36,997 nucleotides of DNA from Desulfovibrionales bacterium (GTDB lineage Bacteria > Desulfobacterota > Desulfovibrionia > Desulfovibrionales > Desulfomicrobiaceae), in assembly GCA_012729655.1 (NCBI GenBank), contig JAAYCS010000124.1, positions 1 through 36,997 of the forward strand, given 5' to 3'. This document shows, in pieces, positions 15,861 to 34,922 of the stretch. The notes below the pieces were generated by a model. It saw nothing but the letters and a program-made list of their open reading frames with translations. It ran no database searches and was not told the DNA's origin. The stretch's first letter is position 1. Every line of letters begins with the position of its first letter. Both the position numbers and the translations under genes were made by a program.

Positions 15861-16769
15861 TCAGGCCGAGCTTTCGTTCCTGTTCAATATGGCCAAGGCC
15901 ATGTCCCTTTCAATGTTCATCCGACCCCGCACGCTGCTCTGCACCGCGGCCGTGGACGAGGCAAAGTTGCGTTTCCTGTCCTCGTAAACCAGGTCGATCA
16001 ACTTCTGGGCGAACGGGGTTCCATGGGCTTTGTTCCCTGCTGCTGATATGGCCCGGCTGAAAATGCCTGCCGCACCAGCCGCGCCGTGCTGTACCGCAGT
16101 GCTCCACAAGGCCTCCTGCACCGCGGCCGGAAGAGTGTTCACATCCACCCCGGTATTTGCCAAAATCTTGTCGCGAGCAGGCTCGTAATGCGTCTCGGCA
16201 ATGAATTCCCGTTGCATGCGCTCGAATTGTTCAGGAGCGCGGTCTGCAATCTTCTTCCAGGCCGCAGGCATGCCCCCCTGGGTTGATCCAGTATTGGCCG
16301 GGCCAGCGGATTTGAGCGCTGAAGCCCATTCCGGGGCTTTTTCCTCCAGATATTCGATGAACCGGCTCATGGTTCCTGGCTTGGAGGCAATTTGATAGGT
16401 CCCGTAAGACGTGCCGCCGTTCCTGTCGTAGCCTATGGCGCCCACTCCCCCCGCACCAGACTCGAATCTCGCCGACAGGGCGCCAATGCCTTCGTGATCT
16501 GGTGTGGTCGAGGCGTCTCTGGCGGTGGATCGCCTGGAACGCTGGGGCAAGAGGGAGGCCAGGCCGTTCAGGGCGTTGTGCATGAGGGCGTTTTCCAGGA
16601 CCGATCCGCCCGCTTCCGCGTTCAACGTACGCGCAGCCGCGTGCAGGGCGACGTTCATTTCCTGCGCGAATCCCGCGTCCTTCGGTGAAACCGGATCCGC
16701 CATACGGTACTGGCGCTCGGGTGCGGTGCCCATGGTGGTCATCAGTTGCATGCGGTCAAGAAGGCTCAT
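15861..16769 (-). CDS. Lysozyme-like/chitosanase-like putative peptidoglycan hydrolase
   Basis: The 302-residue product has a variable N-terminal part (about 1-95) and a conserved-looking domain from RFESGAGGVGAIGYD through GGTSYGTYQIAS, then FIEYLEEKAPEWA, and WSTAVQHGAAGAAGIFSRA. The ES-G...SYGTYQI arrangement recalls the catalytic glutamate and substrate-binding strand of lysozyme-like muramidases, and similar domains occur with phage tail and VgrG proteins. There is no signal peptide or membrane segment, so export would need a partner such as a phage-like, type VI or flagellar apparatus. None is visible in the window. ATG at 16769 is preferred because GGAGA lies 8 nt upstream; a TTG at 16787 is in frame. 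It converges on the J-domain gene with a 40-bp gap. Confidence 0.6.
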   Translation of the reverse strand: MSLLDRMQLMTTMGTAPERQYRMADPVSPKDAGFAQEMNVALHAAARTLNAEAGGSVLENALMHNALNGLASLLPQRSRRSTARDASTTPDHEGIGALSARFESGAGGVGAIGYDRNGGTSYGTYQIASKPGTMSRFIEYLEEKAPEWASALKSAGPANTGSTQGGMPAAWKKIADRAPEQFERMQREFIAETHYEPARDKILANTGVDVNTLPAAVQEALWSTAVQHGAAGAAGIFSRAISAAGNKAHGTPFAQKLIDLVYEDRKRNFASSTAAVQSSVRGRMNIERDMALAILNRNESSA

Positions 16770-16921
16770 GGGGTGTCTCCATGTCAAAAACCTGGCTGAA
16801 AAGGATGCCAGTCCAGTTCATAGCAGCTTTTGGGCCACCCTGACCTTCCTGGCCGTTTTTGAGCCCAGCCCGGCACGAAAAGCAGCAGGCAGCGGCTTTT
16901 CATTCTGTACATGCCCGTTCG

Positions 16922-17357: not shown

Positions 17358-17433
17358 TTTTTCGACACAGGCCCGGAAGACAAATCGAGATTTTTGCCTG
17401 CATTGAGCGCAGTTGGGAAAAATCGGAGGAATC

Positions 17434-18312
17434 ATGAGCAGCATAGGCTGGGTTGGTATCGGAGTGATGGGACGTTCCATGTGCGGTCATCTTTTGCAGG
17501 CCGGGCATTCGGTCAAGGTGCACACCCGCACAAAGTCCTCGGCGCAAAGTGTCCTCGCTGTCGGAGCAGAGTGGTGCGAGCGCCCCGGAGACGTGGCCAG
17601 GGGATCGGAATTTATCTTTACCATTGTCGGCTACCCAGCGGACGTGCGATCCGTGTACCTGGATCAAGGCGGAATTCTGGACCAGTCCGCTTCGGGAAGC
17701 GTGGTGATCGACATGACCACATCGGAGCCGTCCTTGGCCCGGGAAATCTATGCCGCGGCCCGGAAACGGGGTGTGTTCTCCCTGGATGCGCCGGTTTCCG
17801 GCGGCGATCTGGGAGCCCGCAACGCCACCCTGGCCATCATGGCTGGCGGAGACGAAGACGCCTTTGACCGGACGTTGCCTCTGTTTGAGAAAATGGGGAA
17901 GAACGTCCGCCTTATGGGTCAGGCCGGAGCAGGCCAGCATACGAAGATGAGCAACCAGATCCTCATCGCCGGGACCATGGTCGGAGTGGTGGAATCGTTG
18001 CTCTACGCCGTGCGTTCCGGCCTGGACATGGACGCCGTCATCGATGTCATCGGCAGCGGGGCGGCCGGGTCGTGGTCCATCAACAACCTGGGGCGGCGCA
18101 TTGCCAAGGACGACTACAACCCGGGATTCTTCATCAAGCACTTCGTCAAAGACATGGGTATTGCCCTGGCCGAGGCCAGGAGAATGGGGATTGCCCTGCC
18201 TGGGTTGGCCCTGGTGGAGCAGTTGTATGTGGCGGCCATGGCCCAGGGACTGGAAAATATGGGGACCCAGGCCCTGTACAGGGCCTTGAAGCATGTGAAC
18301 GGGATGCGCTAG
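17434..18312 (+). CDS. NAD(P)-dependent beta-hydroxyacid dehydrogenase (3-hydroxyisobutyrate dehydrogenase family)
   Basis: The 292-residue protein starts with a Rossmann motif (IGWVGIGVMGRSMCGHLLQAGH). It has the family signature DAPVSGGDLGARNATLAIMAGG and the catalytic lysine region GAGQHTKMSNQI, and ends in the all-helical dimer domain. This fold includes 3-hydroxyisobutyrate dehydrogenase, tartronate semialdehyde reductase and glyoxylate/succinic-semialdehyde reductase. Substrate cannot be assigned. CGGAGG precedes the ATG at 17434. The sensor kinase gene begins about 100 bp later on the same strand; cotranscription is possible. Confidence 0.9.
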   Translation: MSSIGWVGIGVMGRSMCGHLLQAGHSVKVHTRTKSSAQSVLAVGAEWCERPGDVARGSEFIFTIVGYPADVRSVYLDQGGILDQSASGSVVIDMTTSEPSLAREIYAAARKRGVFSLDAPVSGGDLGARNATLAIMAGGDEDAFDRTLPLFEKMGKNVRLMGQAGAGQHTKMSNQILIAGTMVGVVESLLYAVRSGLDMDAVIDVIGSGAAGSWSINNLGRRIAKDDYNPGFFIKHFVKDMGIALAEARRMGIALPGLALVEQLYVAAMAQGLENMGTQALYRALKHVNGMR

Positions 18313-18408
18313 TCTATCATGCAGCCTCTGCGCGATAGGCGGACACCGTTTGGCTGGCCGGGATGGACTCATGGACATCCCCCACGGCCAAGGGATGCTG
18401 CAGGGGAA

Positions 18409-21400
18409 ATGGCCTTGGAATTGCGGGGAGTGGCGGTGCTGAGATTCTGCCTGGTTCTGCTTGCCGTTCTGGTCCTGGCCTGCCCAGCCCTTGGGCAGGA
18501 GGGTCGCAAGATCAACGTGCTTTACCTCAATTCGTACCATAACGGATACGCATGGTCGGATACGATTCTTGAGGGAGCGCGTCAGACATTCGAGCGCAGT
18601 GGCAAGAACATCTATCTGCAGATCGAATACATGGATTCCAGGCGGTATTTCGGGGACAAGATCATCGAAGTGTTGCTCAACTACTACCGTTTCAAGTTCC
18701 GCAACACCCGCTTCGACCTGATCGTCGCAGCTGACAACAATGCGTACAGCTTTGTCTCGGAGCACGGGGACGACCTCTTCCCAGACGTGCCCATCGTCTT
18801 TTGCGGGGTCAACGACGTGCCGCCCGAAGAGGTGCCCATGCGCCACCGCATGACCGGGGTGCTGGAAGACTTTGACATGCTGAACAACATCACCATGGCC
18901 ATGCGTTTTCATCCGGGGAAGAAACGTTTGGTGGTCATCGGGGACCAGAGCATGACCGGCGTGGCCATCGCCAATCAGGTCCGGGCCCATATTCCGGAGT
19001 TGCCCAAGAACATGCAGGTCGAGTTTCTGGACGATTTCAGCCTGGATGAACTCCTGGACAAGGTTCGTTCCTCGGCAGGTGACAGCATTTTCTTTTTCAT
19101 CCCTTTCTACAAAGAAGTGGGAGGATGGGTGTACTCCGCCCAGGATTTGCTGGAGATAGTGTGGAGAAACACCGGCGTGCCCCTGTACGGGGCATGGGAA
19201 TTTCTGCTTGGGCACGGCCTGATCGGCGGCAAGATGATCAGTGGGTACGACCATGGCCAAGCCGCTGCGGAAATGGGTTTGCGCATCCTGGCCGGGGAGT
19301 CGCCGGCCGCCATTCCAGTCATCTTTAGCCCCGACGCACCTCCCAAGTTCGACTATCAGGTTCTGCTGCGCCTGGGTATCGACCGGAAACTTCTTCCCCC
19401 GGACAGCATCCTGATCAACGAGCCGTCCCCCTTCTATTCCATCAACCGCCATCAGTTCTGGACCATCATCATCAGCCTTGTCGTCCTGAGCCTGGTCCTG
19501 GTCCTTCTGGTCATCAACATCTGGGAGCGCAAGCAGATTGAGGTTCGCATCAAGAACCAGCTTTCCTTCCTGCGCACCCTGATGGACACCCTGCCCATTC
19601 CCATCTACTTTACGGATAAAAGCGGAACCATTTCAGGCATCAACAGGGCTTTTGAGCATTGGTTCGGGTCTATCTGGCGGGAAGTGGGGCAGTCGGGTTT
19701 GCCTGTTCCGGCACCCTTGGGTTCCGGATATGCCGCACTTCTGGACAACCGTTTGGAATCCTTTGAGACTCAGATTCAGCACAGAGACGGGTCCTTGAGA
19801 TCCGCTGTGTTGCACAAAGCGACCTACAGCGATGTGCAGGGCCAAAAAGCAGGCATTGTGGGCGTGATTTACGATATTTCCGACCGCAAGAAGGCCGAGA
19901 ACGACCTGCGCGCGGCCGAAGAGAAATATCGCGAAATTTTTGAAAATTCCGCTCTGGGAATTTTCCGGACTGCACCTGACGGAACCTGGCTGGTTGTCAA
20001 CCCGTCCATGGCCCGCATGCTGGGCTACGCCAGCCCAGAGGAACTGATGGCCTCGAATCCCAACATCTCTTCAGTCTATTACCAGCAAAGCGACCGGTTC
20101 AGGATTCTTGAGCTGTACCAACAGACCCGGGACAGCATCGAACTCGAAGTGCTTTTCAAAACCCGGGACGGATCTGTCATCACCGCCAACCTCAATGCGC
20201 GGGGAGTGTATGGATCCGACGGGGATTTCTGCCATTTCGAGGGGTTCGTGGAGGACATCAGCGACCGCAAGGCTGCTGAACTGGCCCTGGCAGCCTCCGA
20301 GGCCATGCTGCAGCTGGTTTTGGATACCATTCCCCAGCTCGTGCACTGGAAGGATCGCAACCTGAATTTTCTCGGGGCCAATCGCAATTTCCTCGTCTAT
20401 GCCGGCCAATCTGATCTCGCCGCCATCATTGGTAAAACCTATGCCGATGTCGTCCGGAATCAGGACGAGGTCGAACAGATCTCCCTTCTGGACAAGGAGG
20501 TGGTCGAAAGCGATGAACCACGCTACCGGATGCGGTTGGAGACCTCCAATGCAGTGGGAGAACGCATGTGGCTTTCGATCAGCCAGGTGCCCTTGCATGG
20601 CCCCCACGGCGAGGTGGTGGGCGTGCTGAGCACAGCTGAAGACATCACCCAGAATGTGAATCTGGAAAAGCAACTTCTGCAGTCCCAGAAGATGGAGGCT
20701 ATCGGCACGTTGGCGGGAGGGATTGCCCACGATTTCAATAATATATTGACTTCCATCATGAATTCCACGGAATTGGCCATGGAGGATATTCCTGAGGACA
20801 GCATGGCCTGGAAGGACCTGAAACGTTGTCTCAAGGCAGCGGTCCGGGGCAGTGGCCTTATCAAGCAGATTCTCACGTTCAGCCGCCCGACCCAGGAAGG
20901 ATTCGTCCCCACGGACCTGAGCGAGGTGGTCAGGGAGGCCGTTGCCCTGATCAAAGTTTCCGTGCCCCGCAACATTCACGTCGCATCACAGATTGACGAG
21001 GAGCTTCCCTTTTGTCTGGCCGACCCGACCCAGGTGCACCAGATCGTCATGAATCTAACGACCAACGCCTTTCAGGCCCTGGGTGAGGGCAGAGGCACCA
21101 TTTCCATCCGGCTTGCGCGTTTTGTTCTGGATCGGGATGACCCGCATTTTGGGAGGATGGAACCAGGAATCTATACCCTGCTGTCCATCGAGGACGACGG
21201 TCCCGGCATCGACGAATCCATCCAGGACAAAATTTATGACCCGTTTTTCACCACCAAGGGCAAGGGAGAGGGAACCGGACTTGGCCTTGCCGTGGTGCAC
21301 GGCATTGTCCGCAACCATGGAGGCGAGATCCGGCTGAGCAGCAGTCCCGGGTGTACCCGCTTCGAAATCCTGTTGCCGACCATGCGCGATTTCTGTCTCC

Positions 21401-21804
21401 TGCCAGGAGAATGTGCCCATGCCCTGAGCATGGGCACCGAAAGTGTGGCGTTTGTGGAAGACGACGAGGACCAGCTGGCCCTCATCCCGCGTGTGCTCAC
21501 GCAACTTGGCTACACCGTGCATCCGTTCCATGGCGGCAGGGAGGCCCTGCAGGCCATTGGCGAGGGCCGGCAGCATGTTGATCTGGTCATCACCGACTAC
21601 GACATGCCGGATCTGAATGGGCTTGATCTGGCCAGGGCCCTGGGAGAACTTCGACCGGATCTGCCAGTCATTCTGGTTTCCGGCCGGAAGCGTGCTGCTG
21701 CATTTTCTGCCCGATCGAACAACATCAAGTTGTTTCTGGACAAACCCTACAACAAAAACATGGTCGGACGAGCCATCCGCGACGTTCTGGACAAGGAAGA
21801 CTGA
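18409..21804 (+). CDS. Hybrid sensor histidine kinase with periplasmic ABC-substrate-binding-like sensor
   Basis: The 1131-residue protein has, in order, a signal peptide (about 1-30, LLAVLVLACPALGQ), a periplasmic domain like ABC transporter substrate-binding proteins (about 32-340), one membrane helix (about 347-370, FWTIIISLVVLSLVLVLLVI), three PAS domains (about 385-500, 505-630, 630-750), a HisKA domain with phospho-acceptor His774 in GGIAHDFNN, and a HATPase domain with NLTTNAFQAL, DDGPGID and GEGTGLGLAVV. A C-terminal receiver holds the phospho-acceptor Asp1063 in VITDYDMPDLNG. The start at 18409 is chosen for the signal peptide; AGGGGA sits very close to it. Its stop overlaps the response-regulator start (TGATG). 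It probably senses a small organic ligand and controls the downstream lactate/pyruvate cluster. Confidence 0.93.
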   Translation: MALELRGVAVLRFCLVLLAVLVLACPALGQEGRKINVLYLNSYHNGYAWSDTILEGARQTFERSGKNIYLQIEYMDSRRYFGDKIIEVLLNYYRFKFRNTRFDLIVAADNNAYSFVSEHGDDLFPDVPIVFCGVNDVPPEEVPMRHRMTGVLEDFDMLNNITMAMRFHPGKKRLVVIGDQSMTGVAIANQVRAHIPELPKNMQVEFLDDFSLDELLDKVRSSAGDSIFFFIPFYKEVGGWVYSAQDLLEIVWRNTGVPLYGAWEFLLGHGLIGGKMISGYDHGQAAAEMGLRILAGESPAAIPVIFSPDAPPKFDYQVLLRLGIDRKLLPPDSILINEPSPFYSINRHQFWTIIISLVVLSLVLVLLVINIWERKQIEVRIKNQLSFLRTLMDTLPIPIYFTDKSGTISGINRAFEHWFGSIWREVGQSGLPVPAPLGSGYAALLDNRLESFETQIQHRDGSLRSAVLHKATYSDVQGQKAGIVGVIYDISDRKKAENDLRAAEEKYREIFENSALGIFRTAPDGTWLVVNPSMARMLGYASPEELMASNPNISSVYYQQSDRFRILELYQQTRDSIELEVLFKTRDGSVITANLNARGVYGSDGDFCHFEGFVEDISDRKAAELALAASEAMLQLVLDTIPQLVHWKDRNLNFLGANRNFLVYAGQSDLAAIIGKTYADVVRNQDEVEQISLLDKEVVESDEPRYRMRLETSNAVGERMWLSISQVPLHGPHGEVVGVLSTAEDITQNVNLEKQLLQSQKMEAIGTLAGGIAHDFNNILTSIMNSTELAMEDIPEDSMAWKDLKRCLKAAVRGSGLIKQILTFSRPTQEGFVPTDLSEVVREAVALIKVSVPRNIHVASQIDEELPFCLADPTQVHQIVMNLTTNAFQALGEGRGTISIRLARFVLDRDDPHFGRMEPGIYTLLSIEDDGPGIDESIQDKIYDPFFTTKGKGEGTGLGLAVVHGIVRNHGGEIRLSSSPGCTRFEILLPTMRDFCLLPGECAHALSMGTESVAFVEDDEDQLALIPRVLTQLGYTVHPFHGGREALQAIGEGRQHVDLVITDYDMPDLNGLDLARALGELRPDLPVILVSGRKRAAAFSARSNNIKLFLDKPYNKNMVGRAIRDVLDKED

Positions 21805-23210
21805 TGGCCAAAATCCTGATTATCGACGATGACCCGCAGGTCAGTGAAACCCTGCAGAGTTTGGCCGTGCGCCTGGGTCATGAATGTTTCGCCGCCTTGA
21901 CCCTGCAGGAGGGGCTGGCGCGCATCCGGCAAACGGATATGGATATTGTGTTTCTGGACGTGCGTCTTCCAGACGGCAACGGATTGGATGCCCTGGGGTG
22001 GATCAGGGGACTGGCCGCCCCTCCGGATGTTATCGTTCTGACCGGCCAAGGCGATCCCGACGGCGCAGAATTGGCCATCCAGGGAGGGGTGTGGGACTAT
22101 CTGGTCAAGCCATCGCCGATCAAGCAGATCAAGGAGACGTTGAACAGGGCCCTGGCCCATCGGCTGGAAAAGCAGGCCGACATCGGCGTTGATCTGGATT
22201 TGACGGATGTCATCGGCGACAGTGCGGCCATGCGCCAGTGCTATGAGCGCATCGCCCAGGCCAGCAGATCCGATTCCACAGTGCTGGTCACCGGCGAAAT
22301 CGGGACCGGAAAGGAGCTGTTGGCCCGCACCATCCACCGGAACAGCCAGCGCTCGGCTCTGAGTTTCGTGGCTGTGGACTGCGCCTCCCTGACCGAGACC
22401 CTGCTGGAGAGCATCCTTTTCGGACACGTCAGAGGGGCGTTCACCGGAGCGGACAAGGATCGTTCAGGCCTGATCAAGCTGGCGCACCAAGGCACTCTTT
22501 TTCTGGACGAAATAGGGGAGCTTCCCCTCTCGGCCCAAAAGACCTTTCTGCGCGTTCTTCAGGAACGCAGATTCAGGCCCGTGGGTTCCAACCAGGAGTT
22601 GAAGAGCGATTTCCGTCTTATTTCCGCGACCAACAGAAATCTGGAATCCATGGTTCAGGAGGGTAATTTCAGGCAGGACCTCTATTACCGGATCAATACG
22701 ATCCATATTGTGCTGCCCCCGCTGCGGGCGCGGGGGGGCGATATCGCTGTACTGGCCCGTCACCATATCAACAAGCTCTGCCGGCAGCGAAATCTGCCCG
22801 GCAAGGAACTGGACCCTGAATTCATCGAAGTGCTCAAATCATATGATTGGCCTGGAAATGTGCGCGAGTTGTTCAACGCCATCGAGCAGGCCTTTGTGCT
22901 GGCAGGGGGAGAGCGGAAGATCTATGCCCAGCATCTACCCCACGCCCTGCGCATTCGCGTGGCAAAATCCATGTTGGGCAAGGGCAGGGACGATCTGGTT
23001 CCGGCGAGGGAGGATATTCTTCCGGCCTTCAACTTGGAGGAAGGCGCGGGTTGGCCGTCGCTCAAGGAGTACAAGACAAGAATGGAAAAAACATATCTGC
23101 TCACCCTGATCAGGGCCTGCAGAAATGATGTGCAAAAAATGCTCGCTATTTCAGGTCTTTCCAGGTCTCATTTCTATGCAGTGCTGAAGAAGCATGATCT
23201 TGACGCCTGA
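21804..23210 (+). CDS. NtrC-family sigma-54 response regulator
   Basis: The 468-residue protein has a receiver domain (1-120, phospho-acceptor Asp52 in FLDVRLPDGNG), a sigma-54-activating AAA+ domain (about 145-370) with Walker A GEIGTGKE (usual serine is isoleucine here), the intact GAFTGA loop that contacts sigma-54, Walker B GTLFLDEIGEL, and a C-terminal Fis-type HTH (about 425-465, MLAISGLSRSHFYAVLKKH). It overlaps the kinase gene by one base, so the two form a cognate pair. In Desulfovibrio vulgaris, as I recall, the equivalent lactate cluster also follows a kinase/NtrC-type pair. The likely targets are the -24/-12 promoters at 24329-24344 and 23479-23494 through the TCTGA dyads between them. 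Confidence 0.95.
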   Translation: MAKILIIDDDPQVSETLQSLAVRLGHECFAALTLQEGLARIRQTDMDIVFLDVRLPDGNGLDALGWIRGLAAPPDVIVLTGQGDPDGAELAIQGGVWDYLVKPSPIKQIKETLNRALAHRLEKQADIGVDLDLTDVIGDSAAMRQCYERIAQASRSDSTVLVTGEIGTGKELLARTIHRNSQRSALSFVAVDCASLTETLLESILFGHVRGAFTGADKDRSGLIKLAHQGTLFLDEIGELPLSAQKTFLRVLQERRFRPVGSNQELKSDFRLISATNRNLESMVQEGNFRQDLYYRINTIHIVLPPLRARGGDIAVLARHHINKLCRQRNLPGKELDPEFIEVLKSYDWPGNVRELFNAIEQAFVLAGGERKIYAQHLPHALRIRVAKSMLGKGRDDLVPAREDILPAFNLEEGAGWPSLKEYKTRMEKTYLLTLIRACRNDVQKMLAISGLSRSHFYAVLKKHDLDA

Positions 23211-23211
23211 G

Positions 23212-23406
23212 TTACTCATCGTCCTGTTCGAGGCCAAGCCAGAATTCCTTCCAGGAATCGAGGAGGTATTCAGTCTTGACCAGAACGCTGTTCCCTTCGT
23301 GCATGCTCTGATATTGAATGGGTGTGAGCAATTGTGACAACTGCATTGTTTCTTTTTGGGACAGAACGCGGATCACACCGCTTTTGGTTATTGTTTTCCC
23401 CTTCAT
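23212..23406 (-). CDS. Uncharacterised 64-residue protein under a sigma-54-type promoter
   Basis: The protein begins MKGKTITKSGVIRV and ends EFWLGLEQDDE. It has no cysteines, no membrane segment and no signal peptide. It seems to be a small soluble alpha/beta protein with a positively charged start and acidic end. AGAGGG lies 5 nt before the ATG at 23406; an upstream in-frame start at 23469 would fall at the predicted transcription start and is unlikely. The stop is 1 bp from the stop of the response-regulator gene, convergent. A -24/-12 element lies 73 bp upstream. I do not recognise the family. Its placement suggests a small regulator or accessory protein for lactate/pyruvate metabolism. 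Confidence 0.65.
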   Translation of the reverse strand: MKGKTITKSGVIRVLSQKETMQLSQLLTPIQYQSMHEGNSVLVKTEYLLDSWKEFWLGLEQDDE

Positions 23407-23478
23407 GGTAACCCTCTGATTTTTCTCCTGTTTACTGCGGAAATCAAGTTTGTGACGGGTTCGAGTCATACACTGTTT

Positions 23479-23494
23479 AGCAAGAACGTTGCCA
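23479..23494 (-). promoter_or_regulatory. Sigma-54 (-24/-12) promoter for the 64-residue gene
   Basis: The minus strand reads TGGCAAC-GTTC-TTGCT, which matches TGGCAC-N5-TTGCW at 10 of 11 defined positions with correct spacing. The predicted start is near 23468, leaving a leader of about 60 nt before the ATG at 23406. Confidence 0.7.
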
Positions 23495-23905
23495 AGTTTT
23501 ATACGTGTCCTCCCATAGAATGTCTAGACTTTTTGTTCGTGCGCGACATATACGGGCCGTACCTGTACCTTTTTCAGTTCGCAGTTGCTGGATACGGCGG
23601 GTCCTGACTCTTGTCCGGGACTTGCCCTTTCATCGGGATGAAGCGCCAAAGGCCGTTGGCCGCCCCTGAGTTCATTTCTGCGCGGGCCAAGAGTTCAAGG
23701 TATCTTCGTTTTTCGCAATGATTTTGCACAGCCATCAGCAATGGGAAATTCCTGAATTCCCTCTTCGGGGTTCCGGTTTATGCTGCCGCGAAGAGGTTCC
23801 CTCTCTGTCCCATACATGTGCCCGGATCCACGCGCAGCAGCTGCAGGAGAGGCCGCGGGAAAGTCCGTTCCCGGCCAAGAGGTTATGGCTTTGGTTTTTT
23901 GTGTT
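23495..23905. other. About 410 bp without a recognised gene, with several strong hairpins
   Basis: No supported protein gene is seen here. Structures include GCCAA...TTGGC around 23647-23668, a perfect 8-bp stem CCTCTTCG/CGAAGAGG (23760-23767 with 23789-23796), and GGCC-GC-GGGAA / TTCCC-GGCC (23851-23876). The last is followed about 20 nt later by T6. A plus-strand structured RNA ending near 23905 is possible but not recognised as any known family. Confidence 0.3.
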
Positions 23906-23947
23906 TTGCATGCGTTTGGTCCATGAGTATTGTTTATTCAACCAACA

Positions 23948-23963
23948 ATTGTGCATACACAAT
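23948..23963. promoter_or_regulatory. Dyad ATTGTG-N4-CACAAT
   Basis: A perfect 6-bp inverted repeat with a 4-bp spacer lies 7 bp left of the first TCTGA dyad. It resembles operators of dimeric regulators in general. The spacing does not fit the Rex consensus (TTGTG-N8-CACAA), so no regulator is assigned. Confidence 0.4.
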
Positions 23964-23969
23964 CGGACA

Positions 23970-23985
23970 GTCTGAAAAATCAGAC
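23970..23985. promoter_or_regulatory. Enhancer-like dyad 1 (GTCTGA-AAAA-TCAGAC)
   Basis: A perfect 6-bp inverted repeat. The core TCTGAAAAATCAGA recurs identically at 24099-24112 and in diverged, reverse form at 24231-24244. Its centre is about 360 bp upstream of the por -24/-12 element. It is a likely binding site for the sigma-54 activator encoded at 21804-23210. Confidence 0.65.
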
Positions 23986-24098
23986 AAAATCCTTGTGGTG
24001 TTCGCTGAAGTGGGTGGGGGCCAGAATCTGTGATCCCTATGGCCTTTCTGCGGGCGTCGGCGTTGTGGAGTGGGTCTGTTGGCAGATCGCGTGCTGAA

Positions 24099-24112
24099 TC
24101 TGAAAAATCAGA
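24099..24112. promoter_or_regulatory. Enhancer-like dyad 2 (TCTGA-AAAA-TCAGA)
   Basis: The 14-bp core is identical to dyad 1. Its centre is 128 bp downstream of the first dyad and about 230 bp upstream of the por -24/-12 element. Confidence 0.65.
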
Positions 24113-24171
24113 CGGTTCCCCAGATATTTGTATTCTGCCTTTAACCGTTGAATTCCTTGCGTTAGCCGGAT

Positions 24172-24199
24172 TTGAGTTGTCTGTTTCCACCCATATAAT
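24172..24199 (+). promoter_or_regulatory. Candidate sigma-70 promoter in the por leader
   Basis: TTGAGT (24172-24177), a 16-bp spacer and a perfect TATAAT (24194-24199) point towards por. The predicted start near 24206 places dyad 3 at about +25 to +39, where a bound protein could block early elongation. Confidence 0.5.
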
Positions 24200-24230
24200 A
24201 ACGTGCTACGGATTTCATAAATCTCGACTA

Positions 24231-24244
24231 TCTGGTTTTTCAGA
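24231..24244. promoter_or_regulatory. Enhancer-like dyad 3 (TCTGG-TTTT-TCAGA)
   Basis: Read in reverse it is TCTGAAAAACCAGA, one base different from the core of the other two dyads. Its centre is 132 bp after dyad 2 and about 100 bp upstream of the por -24/-12 element, a usual distance for an enhancer-bound activator. Confidence 0.6.
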
Positions 24245-24328
24245 CTGAATCCAAAAAAGGGGGAGAAGGATGGCATGCAGACTATAAAAAAATCTTTTAT
24301 TACGGGTTATTGATTCTAATCTTTAGGC

Positions 24329-24344
24329 TGGCATGAAAATTGTT
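24329..24344 (+). promoter_or_regulatory. Sigma-54 (-24/-12) promoter of por
   Basis: TGGCATG-AAAA-TTGTT matches TGGCAYR-N4-TTGCW except for T in place of the -12 C, with correct spacing. The predicted transcription start is near 24355, about 60 nt before the por ATG. The upstream dyads and the adjacent NtrC-family regulator support it. Confidence 0.7.
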
Positions 24345-24385
24345 AAAGCGATGTAATCGGCATGTGTACGTGCCGCGATCGCTGA

Positions 24386-28060
<3,675 letters not shown>

Positions 28061-28139: not shown

Positions 28140-29852
28140 ATGTCAATTCCTGTCTTGGCAATGGTAGCACTGTTGCCCATCCTGGTGGCTCTGGTGCTCA
28201 TGGTCGGCATGCGCTGGCCTTCGACGAAAGCCATGCCCCTGGCGTGGCTCGTCTGTGTGCTCGGCGCCATCGGCGTCTGGAATCTGCCTGTCGCTTACAT
28301 CGCGGCCCTTTCGGTCAAGGGTGTCATCGACGCCATCGGCGTGCTGATCATCGTCTTCGGCGCCATACTCATCCTGTACACCTTGCAGTACTCGGGGGGC
28401 ATGGAAACCATCCAGTACGGGATGCAGAACATCAGCCGCGACAAGCGCATCCAGGCCATCATCATCGGCTACATGTTCGCGGCCTTCATCGAAGGTGCGG
28501 CCGGTTTCGGCACGCCCGCCGCCCTGGCAGCCCCGCTGCTCCTGTCCCTGGGCTACCCGCCCCTGGCCGCCGCGGTCATCTGCCTGGTCTTCAACTCCTT
28601 CTGCGTGTCCTTCGGCGCGGTGGGCACCCCCATCCTCATCGGCCTGACCCCGCTCAAGCAGCTGGTGGCCGATGCCGCGGCCTCAGGCGTGACAAATCTG
28701 AACTTCACCGATTTCACTACCTTTGCCAAAGTCATCGGCGAGCTGGTCACCCTGATGCACGGCCCCATGGCCGTCATCCTGCCCATCTTCATGCTCGGCT
28801 TCCTGACCCGCTTCTACGGCAAGAACAAGTCCTGGTCCGAAGGCCTCGCCGCCTGGAAGTTCTGCGTCTTCGCCGCCGTGGCCTTCCTGGTTCCTTACGT
28901 CGGCTTTGCCTGGTTGGTCGGACCGGAATTCCCGTCCCTGATCGGCGGTCTGGTGGGTTTGGGCGTCATCGTGGCTGGTGCCAAGGCCGGTTTCTGCGTG
29001 CCCAAGGACACCTGGGATTTCGGCCCCCAATCCACCTGGGACGCCGAGTGGACCGGCAGCATCGCCACGTCTGCAAGTACGGAGTTCAAGGCGCACATGA
29101 GCCAGTTCAAGGCCTGGCTGCCCTACATCCTCATCGGTGCCATCCTGGTCGCGACCCGCATCCCGGCCCTGGGCCTGAAGGCCATTCTGTCCGGCGTGTC
29201 CATCCCCTTCGACAACATCCTGGGCTTCGCGAGCGTCAAGACCTCCCTGCAGTACCTGTACCTGCCCGGCACCATCCCCTTCATGCTGGTCGCCATCCTG
29301 ACCGTCGCCATCCACGGCATGAAGGGTGAGGCCGTCAAGAAGGCCTGGACCGAATCCTTCGTCAAGATGAAGGCCCCGACCATCGCGCTTTTCGCCGCCG
29401 TGGCCCTGGTCTCCGTCTTCCGCGGCTCCGGCATCGCCGACGCGGCCCTGAACCCGAACAGCTACCCGTCCATGCCCCTGGCCATGGCCAAGGCCGTCGC
29501 GGCCCTGGCCGGCAACGCCTGGCCCATGCTGGCCTCCTACGTGGGCGGCCTCGGCGCCTTCATCACCGGTTCCAACACGGTCTCCGACCTGCTGTTCGCC
29601 GAATTCCAGTGGGGCGTGGCCCAGCAGCTCAACCTGTCCCGACAGATCATCGTGGCCGCCCAGGTTGCCGGTGGCGCCATGGGCAACATGGTCTGTATCC
29701 ACAACATCGTGGCTGTCTGCGCCGTGACCGGCCTCATCGGCCGCGAAGGCATGATCCTGAAGCGCACCTTCTGGCCCTTTGTCCTCTACGGCATCGTCGT
29801 GGGCATCATCGCCAGCCTGATGTGCTTTGTGTTCATGGCCAACCGCTTCTAG
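28140..29852 (+). CDS. lctP: L-lactate permease (LctP family)
   Basis: The 570-residue inner-membrane protein has about 12-14 hydrophobic segments and family motifs such as YTLQYSGGMETIQYGM, FIEGAAGFGTPAALAAPLL, FGAVGTPILIGL, and late SYVGGLGAFITGSNTVSDLLF with AGGAMGNMVCIHNIVAVCA. LctP proteins import lactate or glycolate with protons. GAGGGAG precedes the ATG. It follows por by 79 bp that contain a strong hairpin, and is followed by the dehydrogenase genes, so its substrate is most likely lactate. Confidence 0.95.
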   Translation: MSIPVLAMVALLPILVALVLMVGMRWPSTKAMPLAWLVCVLGAIGVWNLPVAYIAALSVKGVIDAIGVLIIVFGAILILYTLQYSGGMETIQYGMQNISRDKRIQAIIIGYMFAAFIEGAAGFGTPAALAAPLLLSLGYPPLAAAVICLVFNSFCVSFGAVGTPILIGLTPLKQLVADAAASGVTNLNFTDFTTFAKVIGELVTLMHGPMAVILPIFMLGFLTRFYGKNKSWSEGLAAWKFCVFAAVAFLVPYVGFAWLVGPEFPSLIGGLVGLGVIVAGAKAGFCVPKDTWDFGPQSTWDAEWTGSIATSASTEFKAHMSQFKAWLPYILIGAILVATRIPALGLKAILSGVSIPFDNILGFASVKTSLQYLYLPGTIPFMLVAILTVAIHGMKGEAVKKAWTESFVKMKAPTIALFAAVALVSVFRGSGIADAALNPNSYPSMPLAMAKAVAALAGNAWPMLASYVGGLGAFITGSNTVSDLLFAEFQWGVAQQLNLSRQIIVAAQVAGGAMGNMVCIHNIVAVCAVTGLIGREGMILKRTFWPFVLYGIVVGIIASLMCFVFMANRF

Positions 29853-29862
29853 TTGTCAACGT

Positions 29863-29895
29863 GGTCCCGAAAGCATGCGCAAGGCTTTCGGGACC
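29863..29895 (+). promoter_or_regulatory. Intercistronic hairpin between lctP and the FAD dehydrogenase gene
   Basis: GGTCCCGAAAGC (29863-29874) and GCTTTCGGGACC (29884-29895) form a perfect 12-bp stem around a 9-nt loop, 10 bp after the lctP stop. No T-run follows. The structure is very stable and unlikely to be chance. A role in mRNA processing or differential stability is the best guess. Confidence 0.7.
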
Positions 29896-29931
29896 GCTGC
29901 ACATAATCGCATCTCACGCAAGGAGAGAACC

Positions 29932-31320
29932 ATGATTTCGACGAGTCTGCTCACTGAATTCAAAAATCTGCTGGGTAAAGAAAACGTCATGGATAGCGAG
30001 TCCGATCGGCACGCCTATTCCTATGATGCCGCAGTGCTCGATGCGGTCATTCCGGAACTGGTGCTGCGGCCGACCAACAGTGAACAGTTGGGCAAGACCG
30101 TGGCGTTGTGCAACGAGAACAAACTGCCCATGACCGTACGCGGCGCCGGCACCAACCTGAGCGGCGGCACCATCCCGACCAAGGAACATGGCGTGGTCAT
30201 CCTGACCAACGGTCTGAACAAGATCCTGGAGATCAACGAGCAGGATCTGTATGCCGTGGTTCAGCCCGGCGTGGTCACGGCCAAGTTCGCGGCCGAGGTG
30301 GCCAGGCGCGGCCTGTTTTATCCGCCGGATCCGGGCTCCCAGGCCGTGTCCACCCTGGGCGGAAACGTCAGCGAGAACGCTGGCGGCCTGCGCGGCCTGA
30401 AGTATGGCGTGACCAAGGACTATGTCATGGGCGTGAATTTCTGGAACGCCGAGGGCGAGTACGTCAAATCCGGCGGGAAGACGGTCAAGTGCGTGACAGG
30501 TCTGAATATTTCTCAGCTCATGGTCGGTTCCGAGGGCACCCTGGGTGTGTTCGACGAGATCATCTTCAAGCTTGTCCCGCCGCCTGTGGCCTCCAAGGCC
30601 ATGCTGGCCGAGTTCGACGACATCAACAAGGCTTCCGAGACTGTGGCGGCCATCATCGCCAACAAGATCGTGCCCTGCACCCTGGAACTCCTGGACAACG
30701 CGACCATCAACTATGTCGAGGATTTCACCAAGGCCGGCCTGCCCTGTGACGCCGCGGCCATCCTGCTGATCGAGGTCGACGGCGGCCACATCGCCCTGGT
30801 CGAGGACGACGCCGAAAAGGTCGTTGAGATCTGCAAGAAGAACGGCGCCCGCCGCGTGCAGATGGCCAAGGACGCCGCCGAGAAGAACAAGCTGTGGGAG
30901 GCCCGTCGCAACGCGCTGCCGGCCCTGGCCCGCGCCCGTCCGACCACGGTGCTGGAGGACGCCACCGTGCCGCGCAGCCAGATCCCGGCCATGATCAAGG
31001 CCATCAACGACATCGCCGCCAAGTACAAGCTGCAGATCGGCACCTTCGGCCACGCCGGCGACGGCAACCTGCATCCGACCATTCTGACGGACAAGCGCGA
31101 CAAGGAGGAGTTCCATCGCGTGGAGCAGGCTGTCGACGAGATCTTCGACGTGGCCCTGTCCCTGGGCGGGACCCTGTCCGGCGAACACGGCATCGGCACG
31201 GCCAAGTCCAAGTGGCTGGAAAAGGAAACCACCAAGGCGACCATCATCTACTCGCGCAGGCTGAAGAAGGCGGTTGACCCCAACTACCTGCTCAATCCCG
31301 GCAAGATCATCGGAGGCTAG
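29932..31320 (+). CDS. FAD-linked lactate/glycolate dehydrogenase subunit (GlcD-like)
   Basis: The 462-residue flavoprotein belongs to the FAD-binding 4 / vanillyl-alcohol-oxidase family. Motifs are VRGAGTNLSGGTIP, PDPGSQAVSTLGGNVSENAGG and GSEGTLGVFDEI in the FAD domain, and GTFGHAGDGNLHPTI and LSGEHGIGTAKSKWL in the C-terminal domain. It has no membrane segment. With the next gene it probably forms a membrane-associated complex that oxidises lactate (D-lactate is common for this type) to pyruvate. AAGGAGAG precedes the ATG at 29932. Glycolate is an alternative substrate, but permease and por neighbours favour lactate. Confidence 0.92.
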   Translation: MISTSLLTEFKNLLGKENVMDSESDRHAYSYDAAVLDAVIPELVLRPTNSEQLGKTVALCNENKLPMTVRGAGTNLSGGTIPTKEHGVVILTNGLNKILEINEQDLYAVVQPGVVTAKFAAEVARRGLFYPPDPGSQAVSTLGGNVSENAGGLRGLKYGVTKDYVMGVNFWNAEGEYVKSGGKTVKCVTGLNISQLMVGSEGTLGVFDEIIFKLVPPPVASKAMLAEFDDINKASETVAAIIANKIVPCTLELLDNATINYVEDFTKAGLPCDAAAILLIEVDGGHIALVEDDAEKVVEICKKNGARRVQMAKDAAEKNKLWEARRNALPALARARPTTVLEDATVPRSQIPAMIKAINDIAAKYKLQIGTFGHAGDGNLHPTILTDKRDKEEFHRVEQAVDEIFDVALSLGGTLSGEHGIGTAKSKWLEKETTKATIIYSRRLKKAVDPNYLLNPGKIIGG

Positions 31321-31322
31321 TC

Positions 31323-32612
31323 ATGCACGAAGATCTCCATCAGCTCGCCAAGATGCTGCACGAGCTCGACGACCAGATGGTCGCCTGCATGAAGTGCGGC
31401 CTGTGCCAGTCCGTCTGTCCGGTGTTCGCCGAGACCATGCGCGAGGGCGATGTGGCCAGGGGCAAGATCGCTCTGCTCGAGAACCTGTCCCATGAAATGA
31501 TCAAGGATGCCGAGGGCGTGCAGGAAAAGCTGAACATGTGCCTGCTGTGCGGATCCTGTGCCGCCAATTGCCCCAGCGGGGTGAAGGTCCTGGACATCTT
31601 CCTCAAAGCCCGGGTCATCGTGAACACCTATATGGGGTTGCCGCCGGCCAAGAAGGCCATTTTCCAGGGTCTGTTGACCAAGCCGGCGCTTTTCAACACC
31701 ATCCTGGACGTGGCTTCCAAGTTTCAGGGCATCTTTACCAAGCCGGCCAGCGAGGTCATCGGTTCGTCCTGTTCGCGCATCAACGCCCCGATCATTGGCG
31801 ACCGTCATTTCATGCCGCTGGCCAAGAAGCCTTTGCGCAAGCTCGAATCGGCCCGCAATACCCGCCCCGGAAAGGGTGGATACCGGGTGGCTTTTTTCCC
31901 AGGCTGCGTGGTGGACAAGGTCTATCCCAAGGTCGGTCAGGCTGTGCTCAAGGCCCTGACCCATCATGAGATCGGCGTCTACATGCCTGCGGGTCAGGCC
32001 TGCTGCGGCATCCCTGCCCTGGCTTCAGGAGACAAGGAGTCCTTCGACAAGCTCGTGCAGCATAATCTCGAACTCTTTGAAAAGGAGAATTTCGATTATC
32101 TGCTTACCCCTTGCGCCACGTGCACCGCGACCATGCATGAGATCTGGCCGCTCATGTCCGGTAACCAGACACAGAGCATGCAGGAGCGCATAGCTTCCCT
32201 GTCCGCCAAGGTCATGGACATAACCCAGTTTATGGTCGATGTGCTGAAGGTGGCCCTGCCTGTCAGCGGAAGCGGGATAAAAGTGACCTATCACGACCCA
32301 TGCCATCTCAAAAAATCCATGAAGGTTTTCGAGCAACCCAGGGCACTTCTCAAGTCCAACCCCAGGGTCCAGTTCGTGGAGATGGCGGAAGCTGACCGGT
32401 GCTGTGGCTGCGGGGGCAGCTTCAACCTGCAACATTACAACGTGTCCAAGGAAATAGGCCAGCATAAGCGGGACAATATCGTGGCTTCAGGCGCCCAGGT
32501 CGTGGCTACGGCTTGCCCGGCGTGCATGATGCAAATGTCCGACATGCTGTCCCAGAACAAGGACCAGGTAGCAGTCAAGCACGTCATGGAACTCTACGCG
32601 GAAACCCTTTGA
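31323..32612 (+). CDS. Fe-S/CCG-domain partner of lactate dehydrogenase (GlcF/LldE-like)
   Basis: The 429-residue protein starts 2 bp after the FAD subunit stop, so translation is coupled. Two 4Fe-4S motifs are near the N-terminus (CMKCGLCQSVCP and CLLCGSCAANCP). They are followed by two cysteine-rich CCG domains (FFPGCVVDKVYP with AGQACCGIPA, and YHDPCHLKK with CCGCGGSFN). Such proteins pass electrons from the flavin subunit to the quinone pool or a heterodisulfide-reductase-like partner. Its place between the flavin subunit and a terminator makes it the last gene of the por transcript. Confidence 0.92.
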   Translation: MHEDLHQLAKMLHELDDQMVACMKCGLCQSVCPVFAETMREGDVARGKIALLENLSHEMIKDAEGVQEKLNMCLLCGSCAANCPSGVKVLDIFLKARVIVNTYMGLPPAKKAIFQGLLTKPALFNTILDVASKFQGIFTKPASEVIGSSCSRINAPIIGDRHFMPLAKKPLRKLESARNTRPGKGGYRVAFFPGCVVDKVYPKVGQAVLKALTHHEIGVYMPAGQACCGIPALASGDKESFDKLVQHNLELFEKENFDYLLTPCATCTATMHEIWPLMSGNQTQSMQERIASLSAKVMDITQFMVDVLKVALPVSGSGIKVTYHDPCHLKKSMKVFEQPRALLKSNPRVQFVEMAEADRCCGCGGSFNLQHYNVSKEIGQHKRDNIVASGAQVVATACPACMMQMSDMLSQNKDQVAVKHVMELYAETL

Positions 32613-32620
32613 TGCATTGA

Positions 32621-32660
32621 CGTCGGCGGATATCGGTCTTTCGGTCCGCCGACGTTTTTT
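32621..32660 (+). terminator. Strong rho-independent terminator after the Fe-S subunit gene
   Basis: CGTCGGCGGA (32621-32630) and TCCGCCGACG (32645-32654) form a perfect 10-bp stem with a 14-nt loop, followed at once by T6. It lies 8 bp after the stop and should end or strongly reduce the por transcript before pta. Confidence 0.92.
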
Positions 32661-32662
32661 CA

Positions 32663-32692
32663 TTGGAAGAACGCGCGTGAATCGTCTACAAT
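32663..32692 (+). promoter_or_regulatory. Candidate sigma-70 promoter of pta-ackA
   Basis: TTGGAA (32663-32668), an 18-bp spacer and TACAAT (32687-32692) follow the terminator directly, leaving a leader of about 110 nt before the pta ATG. It would allow pta-ackA to be made when the por promoter is off. Confidence 0.55.
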
Positions 32693-32809
32693 AAATAAAA
32701 TGATGGGTCTTTTTGGGCAGTTTTGAGCGTGTTATGAACCAACCAGGTGGCTCGACCGTGAACCTTGGGGGACATGTCGGAGTCTTCACCGGCAGATGAA
32801 GGAAACACA

Positions 32810-34912
32810 ATGGCCAACAATCTCTACATCACGGCGACGGAATCCCGGAGCGGAAAATCCGCAATCACCTTGGGTGTCATGCAGATGCTTCTGCGGGACA
32901 TCCGCCGGGTCGGTTTTTTCAGACCGATCATCAGCGACGATACGGATCGCAAGGACCACGATATTGATCTGGTCCTGTCCCAGTTCTATCTGGGGCTCCA
33001 GTACCACGAAACCTATGCCTTGACCATGCGCCAGGCCAAGGAACTGGTCAACGCGGGCCAGCATTCCCTTCTCATTGAAAAGGTCATGAATAAGTACAAG
33101 GAACTGGAGTCCAAATGCGATTTCATTCTGTTGGAAGGGACGGATTTCGAGGGAACCAGTCCGGCCTTTGAGTTCGACATCAACGCCGACATCGCCGCCA
33201 ATCTGGGCAGCCCGCTGCTGATGATTTCCAATGCCTGCCAGAAGACCGAACACGAGATCATCAGCTCCACCAAACTGGCCGTGGAATCCATCGCCGACAA
33301 GGCTGTGGACATAATGGGCGTCGTGGTCAATCGCACCGATGTCGCCGATCGCAATGCCTTGCGCGTGGCTCTCAAGAAGACCCTGAACAAGCCCGATCTC
33401 CTGCTGTACATCATTCCTGAGGTGGCCATCTTGGGCAAGCCTACCATGGCCGACGTCATGAAGTGGGTAGGTGCTGAGGTGCTCTATGGCAAGGACGGTC
33501 TCGGCGCCCAGGTAGATGACATCGTCGTGGCGGCCATGCAGATCGAAAATTTTCTGAACTACATTGAACAAGGCAGCCTGGTGGTCTCACCTGGTGACCG
33601 TTCGGATGTCATCGTCACCAGTCTTGCTTCCCGGCAATCCTCGTCCTTTCCGGACATTGCCGGCATTCTGTTGACCGGAGGCATATCCCCGGGCAAGAGC
33701 GTGGCCCGCCTCATCGACGGGTGGACCGGTGTACCCCTGCCTGTGCTGCTGGGCAAGGAGGCCACATTCCAGACAGCACGCCGTCTCTACAACATGTACG
33801 GCAAGATCGAACCCGGAGACCAGAAGAAGATAGCCTCGGCTCTGGGCGTGTTTGAAGAGAGCGTGGACACGGATGAACTGCGCCAGCGTCTGAACACCCG
33901 CAAGTCGACCAAGGTCACTCCGCAGATGTTCGAATACAGTCTCATCGAAAAAGCCAAAAAACACAGGCAGCATATCGTCCTGCCCGAAGGGAACGATGAG
34001 CGCATTCTGCGCGCGGCCGACATCCTGCTCCGCCGGGGCGTCGTCGATCTGACCGTTCTCGGGGACCCGCGGGCCATCAGCTCCATGACCTCGCAGATGG
34101 GTCTCAATCTTTCCGGGGTGAATATCGTGGATCCCGCCAAGTCGCCTGACTTTGCCGAATATGTCGAAACATTCTTCGAGCTCCGGAAGAAAAAGGGAGT
34201 ATCCAAGGAAGTGGCCCGCGACACCATGGTCGACCCGACCTATTTCGGGACCATGATGGTCTTCAAGAACCAGGCAGATGGCATGGTTTCCGGGGCTATC
34301 AACACCACAGCGCACACCATCCGCCCTGCCTTCCAGATCATCAAGACCAAGCCCGGCGCATCCATCGTGTCCAGTGTCTTCCTGATGTGTCTCAAGGACC
34401 GCGTCCTGGTCTTCGGCGACTGCGCCGTCAATCCGAACCCCACCGCGCAGCAACTTGCTGAGATCGCCATCAGTTCAGCCGAAACTGCCCGCATCTTCGG
34501 CGTTGAGCCACGTATCGCCATGTTGTCCTATTCCACCGGTGACTCCGGTGCCGGCGGCGATGTGGACGTGGTCATCGAGGCCACCCGCATCGCCCGCGAG
34601 AAGGTTCCGGGTCTCCTGCTGGAAGGGCCGTTGCAGTACGACGCGGCCATCGATCCCGACGTGGGCGCCAAGAAGCTTCCGGGCAGTCAGGTCGCCGGTC
34701 GGGCCACCGTGTTTATCTTTCCGGACCTGAACACCGGCAACAACACCTACAAGGCGGTCCAGCGCGCCGCCAACGCCGTGGCCATCGGCCCGGTCCTGCA
34801 GGGACTGAACAAGCCAGTCAACGATCTGAGCCGCGGCTGCACCGTACCCGACATCGTCAACACCGTAGCCATCACGGCCATCCAGGCCCAGGCAGAAAAA
34901 GGATTAATATAG
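32810..34912 (+). CDS. pta: Phosphate acetyltransferase (long form with DRTGG domain)
   Basis: The 700-residue enzyme converts acetyl-CoA and phosphate to acetyl phosphate. Residues 1-370 form the N-terminal P-loop-like region (ATESRSGKSAITLGVMQML) and DRTGG domain, thought to be regulatory. Residues 380-700 form the catalytic PTA domain: VLPEGNDERILRAAD, MVSGAINTTAHTIRPAFQ, LSYSTGDSGAGGDVD, and EGPLQYDAAIDP with VFIFPDLNTGNNTYKAVQR. AAGGAAA precedes the ATG at 32810; the in-frame start further upstream is not supported. ackA follows after 10 bp. Confidence 0.97.
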   Translation: MANNLYITATESRSGKSAITLGVMQMLLRDIRRVGFFRPIISDDTDRKDHDIDLVLSQFYLGLQYHETYALTMRQAKELVNAGQHSLLIEKVMNKYKELESKCDFILLEGTDFEGTSPAFEFDINADIAANLGSPLLMISNACQKTEHEIISSTKLAVESIADKAVDIMGVVVNRTDVADRNALRVALKKTLNKPDLLLYIIPEVAILGKPTMADVMKWVGAEVLYGKDGLGAQVDDIVVAAMQIENFLNYIEQGSLVVSPGDRSDVIVTSLASRQSSSFPDIAGILLTGGISPGKSVARLIDGWTGVPLPVLLGKEATFQTARRLYNMYGKIEPGDQKKIASALGVFEESVDTDELRQRLNTRKSTKVTPQMFEYSLIEKAKKHRQHIVLPEGNDERILRAADILLRRGVVDLTVLGDPRAISSMTSQMGLNLSGVNIVDPAKSPDFAEYVETFFELRKKKGVSKEVARDTMVDPTYFGTMMVFKNQADGMVSGAINTTAHTIRPAFQIIKTKPGASIVSSVFLMCLKDRVLVFGDCAVNPNPTAQQLAEIAISSAETARIFGVEPRIAMLSYSTGDSGAGGDVDVVIEATRIAREKVPGLLLEGPLQYDAAIDPDVGAKKLPGSQVAGRATVFIFPDLNTGNNTYKAVQRAANAVAIGPVLQGLNKPVNDLSRGCTVPDIVNTVAITAIQAQAEKGLI

Positions 34913-34922
34913 AGAGGATAGC

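Follow-up and report, generated by a model that had tools for sequence, protein, structure and literature searches.

A LurR-type sigma-54 enhancer at the Desulfomicrobium lactate operon, its nearly fixed proximal dyad distance and a very likely divergent promoter for an orphan small gene

These sulfate reducers gain their energy mainly by oxidising lactate, and the way this process is switched on affects sulfide production. In the genome studied here, a 1.0-kb intergenic region separates por, the first gene of the lactate operon luo, from a small divergent gene. The first-pass annotation had seen two outward-pointing -24/-12 elements in this region, with three regularly spaced dyads between them, and had suggested that one enhancer block could switch both transcripts. 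Does a single block serve both promoters, and which parts of its geometry are under constraint?

The window, by which we mean the whole analysed stretch of 36,997 nucleotides, is part of a Desulfomicrobium sp. metagenome-assembled genome, as placed by its relatives. Its arrangement is the lurSR-luo order published for D. vulgaris (PMC6456213), and its relevant features are as follows.

17413-18312: 3-hydroxyisobutyrate-type dehydrogenase gene, preceding the lurS-type kinase gene
18319-21804, plus: lurS-type sensor histidine kinase gene (Pfam; gene order as published for lurSR, PMC6456213)
21804-23210, plus: lurR, NtrC-type response regulator gene
23212-23406, minus: small divergent gene, 64 aa, ATG at 23406
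23479-23495, minus: very likely sigma-54 -24/-12 element of the small gene, TTGGCAACGTTCTTGCT, start predicted near 23468
23928-23945: degenerate copy of a conserved palindrome (GGTTGTTTAGTCAACCAA in relatives), just upstream of LurR site 1
23970-23985, plus: LurR site 1, GTCTGAAAAATCAGAC, exact dyad matching the published LurR 16-mers
24098-24113, plus: LurR site 2, ATCTGAAAAATCAGAC, exact dyad
24138-24207: conserved block between sites 2 and 3, kept in 12 of 13 Desulfomicrobium
24230-24245, minus: LurR site 3, promoter-proximal, GTCTGAAAAACCAGAT on minus, one mismatch to TCTGA-N4-TCAGA
24328-24344, plus: luo sigma-54 -24/-12 promoter, CTGGCATGAAAATTGTT, same form as the mapped D. vulgaris promoter, start predicted near 24355
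24416-28060, plus: por, pyruvate:ferredoxin oxidoreductase gene, first luo gene (domain matches)
28140-36128, plus: remaining luo genes (domain matches)

The lurS-type kinase has a substrate-binding-like N-terminus, PAS domains, HisKA/HATPase and a C-terminal receiver (Pfam). The gene that follows it was correctly recognised from the start as an NtrC-type activator, with a receiver, a sigma-54 activator AAA+ domain carrying GAFTGA, and a Fis-like HTH at its C-terminus; lurR orthologues adjoining por are 70-72% identical in Desulfomicrobium and about 55% in Nitratidesulfovibrio. After por come genes for a lactate permease, an FAD-linked lactate dehydrogenase, an Fe-S/CCG subunit, phosphotransacetylase (pta) and acetate kinase (ack). 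A member of the LurR regulon is expected to have a LurR orthologue encoded beside the luo/por operon, at least one 16-bp LurR site upstream of por and a sigma-54 promoter downstream of the sites; the window has the orthologue, three sites, and the promoter at 24328-24344. Elsewhere in the window, an ORF on the minus strand (15861-16787) matches a type VI VgrG3-like C-terminal/lysozyme-like domain (PF21277), and a search of 23000-24600 for RNA families found none.

Exact TCTGA-N4-TCAGA dyads lie at 23971-23984 and 24099-24112, two in the window against 0.04 expected, and no shuffle reached two. The third, at 24231-24244, reads TCTGGTTTTTCAGA on the plus strand and TCTGAAAAACCAGA on the minus strand; it carries one mismatch and is oriented opposite to the others, so the initial description of three like dyads stands for the first two (starting at 23971 and 24099) and needs correction for the one at 24231. 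TCTGAAAAAYCAGA without mismatch occurs only 3 times in the 2.84-Mb genome, all in this region, where about 0.01 would be expected from base composition. In D. vulgaris the published LurR sites read, on the opposite strand, ATCCGCTTTTTCAGAC, GTCCGCTTTTCAAGAC and GTCCACTTTTTCAGAC; EMSA on wild-type and substituted DNA served to test the motif, and one to four such sites, mostly three, lie upstream of luo in most lurR-bearing genomes (PMC6456213). The 16-mers of the window match these published 16-mers on the reverse strand. Given this match to an EMSA-tested motif, the three dyads are LurR binding sites by sequence and context, and we infer that LurR binds them in this species as well. Among further motif matches in the same genome, the nearest lie within coding sequence or beside a capsid-like gene (L004, L005), and no further LurR target emerged from them. 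An A-rich match to dyad plus promoter was rejected as a LurR target since it belongs to the promoter of the ammonium transporter gene amtB. Promoters of this amtB type in Desulfomicrobium (L274; also L270, L272, L280 and L283) have a conserved -24/-12 element, TGGCACCGTCCTTGCT, with AAAAAACGACAATTTGTC-type upstream elements, which are unrelated to LurR and probably serve nitrogen control.

Both outward -24/-12 elements were confirmed, the minus one at 23495-23479 and the plus one at 24328-24344. The -12 of the latter reads GT rather than GC, as it does in the D. vulgaris luo promoter ATTGGCACATTTCTTGTTA, whose start has been mapped 12 bp downstream of the -12 (PMC6456213, PMC4481167). Since the 16-mers agree with a LurR site validated by EMSA, and the plus promoter corresponds to the luo promoter already on record, the core of this region has been described before (Rajeev 2019, Vita 2015); the sigma-54 enhancer that had been proposed for the adjacent activator at the lactate operon is the LurR-luo system.

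We therefore read the region as the LurR-dependent sigma-54 enhancer and promoter of luo in Desulfomicrobium, accompanied by a lineage-specific minus-strand sigma-54 promoter for a 64-aa Desulfomicrobiaceae orphan, and we give this reading a probability of about 0.88. LurR binding and activation and the luo start are known from D. vulgaris, where LurR binds its sites and activates on lactate (PMC6456213); the sites, promoters, conservation and fixed distance described here come from the present analysis. Phosphorylated LurR from the adjacent lurSR two-component system would bind the three 16-bp dyads. The proximal dyad, centred about 118 bp upstream of the predicted start, would present the AAA+ assembly to sigma-54 polymerase at 24328-24344, and the two distal dyads probably raise the local LurR concentration and help the oligomer to form. 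The minus -24/-12 element would drive the 64-aa orphan, fired either by LurR or by another enhancer-binding protein.

Two other readings of the dyads have to be considered. Dyad identity alone does not name the regulator, because in D. vulgaris NrfR shifts the same sites as LurR (PMC6456213), and a paralogous response regulator (NrfR- or DVU0539-like) might be what mainly occupies the dyads. We consider this improbable, since disruption of nrfR in D. vulgaris caused no significant change in por under nitrite, whereas deletion of lurR lowered por on lactate, and since lurR is linked to the sites in the window and its relatives. The other reading, in which the dyads are merely structural or accidental repeats and chance accounts for the -24/-12 matches, would draw on how common two-mismatch matches to TGGCAC-N5-TTGC are (36 in the window, with 49 expected). 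The exact dyads, however, are far above expectation, both promoters keep their position in 13 genomes, and shuffled upstream regions match as well as the minus element in 0.6% of cases; such a reading, already contradicted by the conservation data, is barely credible.

To follow the geometry of the block we compared 13 Desulfomicrobium loci, the window included. All 13 have three LurR sites, oriented as a rule plus, plus, minus; in L013, site 1 is near-symmetric and scores on the minus strand. The dyads and both promoters are kept, and the regular dyad spacing is not. The spacings in the window are indeed 128 and 132 bp, as first reported, but they amount to 12.2 and 12.6 turns at 10.5 bp per turn rather than to nearly 12, and in relatives the spacing between sites 1 and 2 ranges over 108-148 bp in the genus and that between sites 2 and 3 over 64-176 bp between genera. 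Regular spacing is thus not the constrained feature, and the idea of helical regularity as a design principle has to be given up. Within Desulfomicrobium the spacing between sites 2 and 3 is nearly constant (132-135 bp), because the two sites flank a conserved block of about 60 bp. In relatives this block reads TTAACC...GTTAACCGGATTGAAGTTGT.TGTTTGCAT, with TTAACC repeated about 21 bp apart, and in the window the 24138-24207 block contains the sigma-70-like hexamers TTGAGT-16-TATAAT. It is possibly a sigma-70 promoter or the site of another regulator. The palindrome just upstream of site 1, GGTTGTTTAGTCAACCAA, is found in most Desulfomicrobium (L010-L020; L157, oriented to por). G052, with decayed LurR sites and no small gene, still has it intact, and in the genomes searched it occurs essentially once per genome, at luo.

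What is constant is the distance from the proximal dyad to the luo promoter. In the window, the centre of site 3 lies 90.5 bp from the 5' end of the -24/-12 element. We scanned the por upstream regions of other genera with a PWM trained only on Desulfomicrobium LurR sites, which recovered dyads at por in 12 further genera. Among the 64 loci that have both a sigma-54 promoter and a LurR site, 62, in 12 of 13 genera, place the nearest dyad centre 80.5-94.5 bp upstream of the 17-bp -24/-12 element; the two exceptions are L211 (160.5 bp) and L224 (207.5 bp). The distances fall into classes of 89.5-94.5 bp in ten genera, 80.5-82.5 bp in g21 and 83.5-84.5 bp in g3, with none at 85-89 bp. With the g35 exception left out, genus medians have a standard deviation of 3.5 bp for this distance; the corresponding figures for the next spacing and for the distance from promoter to ATG are 33 and 71 bp. 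The spacer between dyad and promoter is 28% identical between genera, compared with 27% for shuffles; because identity is at the shuffled level, the length of the spacer is kept and not merely inherited with its sequence. In 10 of 12 genomes this geometry, with a T-rich dyad, has a single occurrence, which is the one at luo.

Whether the distance is also phased is less clear. The g21 class, about one helical turn closer, fits phasing, and g3 does not fit cleanly. A 10.5-bp periodicity is not established: periods from 9.5 to 11.5 bp all give a Rayleigh R of about 0.70, so periodicity is not separable from clustering, which alone suffices. If both refer to 5' ends, the published D. vulgaris coordinates (LurR site at -250, promoter at -136) would correspond to about 106-114 bp, a misfit to the fixed distance. 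The words "spacing", "distance" and "helical" do not appear in the main text of the LurR paper (PMC6456213). In the sister genus g3 (L111, L112, L022-L024), lurR is not beside por, yet LurR-type sites remain there; regulator and target have separated. G052 likewise keeps lurR elsewhere in its genome and has only degraded sites at por.

The minus-strand element also bears the marks of a sigma-54 promoter. It is conserved with the small gene across Desulfomicrobium, occurring in all 13 loci that have the gene, 85-89 nt before the ATG, in the form TTGGCA-N6-TTGC (TTGGTT in L021). It has a -24 GG, a -12 GC and 10-bp spacing at a position conserved relative to the gene, and its core columns are 98% conserved compared with 53% in the 100 nt upstream (13 genomes). 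In the sister genus g3 a variant, AGGAACGTTTTTTGCT, precedes the ATG by 56-57 nt. No comparable minus element was seen in three Nitratidesulfovibrio/Desulfovibrio loci (L030-L032). Because of its core conservation, fixed position and rarity in shuffles, the minus element is very likely a true sigma-54 promoter. An alternative 85-aa ORF start at 23469 coincides with the predicted transcription start.

Of 16 Desulfomicrobium genomes, 13 carry the gene itself, as do all three sister-genus genomes; it was not found elsewhere among 348 genomes of the order, where matches outside Desulfomicrobiaceae were only partial (E>0.003) and were rejected as relatives. Its 64-aa product is 66-78% identical in 12 other Desulfomicrobium and 62-65% in g3. 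No match was found in Pfam (window protein) or in NCBIfam or PDB sequences (family alignment). An AlphaFold2 model predicts a compact beta-beta-alpha-alpha-beta-beta fold with a pLDDT of 89, although the five models disagree (46-89), and the fold has no convincing structural match (best Foldseek E 0.62, best VIA Z 3.9). One Desulfomicrobium genome also encodes a diverged paralogue, 48% identical, away from por (L025, G064:C35:6429-6593).

Is this gene fired by the same LurR block as luo? That both promoters are of the sigma-54 type and are conserved together next to lurR speaks for it, as does the fact that LurR dyads are the only recognised enhancer-binding-protein sites in the intergenic region of the window. 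The gene and two LurR sites persist in g3 though lurR lies elsewhere in the genome, and G067, for which a search found no lurR orthologue, has neither the small gene nor recognisable dyads; its por comes immediately after the dehydrogenase gene (73% identical) that lies ahead of lurS in the window. A shared bidirectional enhancer, however, should have a dyad 80-95 bp from both promoters. Such a dyad is found for luo, and for the minus promoter in none of 13 Desulfomicrobium; the nearest lies at 225, 268-274 or 304-308 bp in relatives and at 482 bp in the window, with no constant distance. In 10 of 13 Desulfomicrobium (L010-L012, L014-L020) the minus promoter is preceded, at 127-132 bp, by a different element, TGTTTCNAANNNGCACA (TGT-N11-ACA), and because the scoring matrix was built from the same sequences that it scored, only this near-constant position counts as independent evidence. 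Several genomes have a second copy at 172-174 bp, about 42 bp from the first. A position some 130 bp upstream is typical for an enhancer-binding protein, and TGTTTCNAANNNGCACA is a candidate small-gene enhancer. With no dyad at the standard position and this other element near 130 bp, joint switching of both transcripts by LurR is unproven; we regard it as conceivable at somewhat worse than even odds. That a different enhancer-binding protein fires the small gene, the two promoters merely sharing an intergenic region, falls just short of an even chance: a search for TGTTTCNAANNNGCACA came up empty in the window, in L013 and L021, and in the sister genus.

What this analysis adds is modest but testable. 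A conserved orphan gene beside the lactate operon, very likely with a sigma-54 promoter to itself, emerges as a candidate for a new participant in lactate metabolism, and one easily overlooked because the ORF in the same place in D. vulgaris was judged unconserved. The 64 natural enhancers from 13 genera show that evolution fixes the distance of the proximal site and lets the distal sites and the sequence drift, and this geometry could aid the search for LurR targets alongside the motif. We may speculate, as a tentative idea that we would sooner bet against, that one rule holds across the order, with the proximal dyad about 91 bp (about 82-84 bp in two genera) from the -24/-12 element and the intervening sequence wholly turned over, and that next to this enhancer Desulfomicrobiaceae gained an outward-facing sigma-54 promoter whose product, an orphan small protein, may modulate lactate metabolism.

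The closest known system is LurR-luo of D. vulgaris Hildenborough (DVU3023-DVU3025; PMC6456213, PMC3333781, PMC4481167). Like the window, it has lurSR alongside, an operon that begins with por, three 16-bp sites that share one sequence type with those here, and a sigma-54 promoter of the form TGGCA(C/T)...TTGTT. The site spacings differ, reported as 39 and 100 bp in D. vulgaris compared with 128 and 132 bp here, and the D. vulgaris region carries a PhoB box together with a predicted sigma-70 -10 overlapping its sigma-54 promoter. DVU3024, the small ORF in the same place, was reported to be unconserved and to lack a Shine-Dalgarno sequence; the Desulfomicrobium gene, by contrast, is conserved and preceded by a -24/-12 element. 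For natural sigma-54 enhancers, sensitivity to distance has a published precedent in the Vibrio qrr enhancers (LuxO; PMC4740811), in which the distance from enhancer to promoter is apparently constrained as well; those enhancers are helical-repeat-sensitive and involve another regulator and other genes, and in luo the proximal dyad alone is constrained. The type III secretion operons under DVUA0100 (PMC4641369) resemble the window in having outward sigma-54 promoters around a common upstream region with activator motifs, but the second promoter of the window is lineage-specific and has no activator dyad at the standard distance. Set beside these systems, the core of the locus is a known regulatory module in a new species, to which this work adds a conserved divergent promoter, the orphan gene that goes with it, and a proximal distance that stays fixed.
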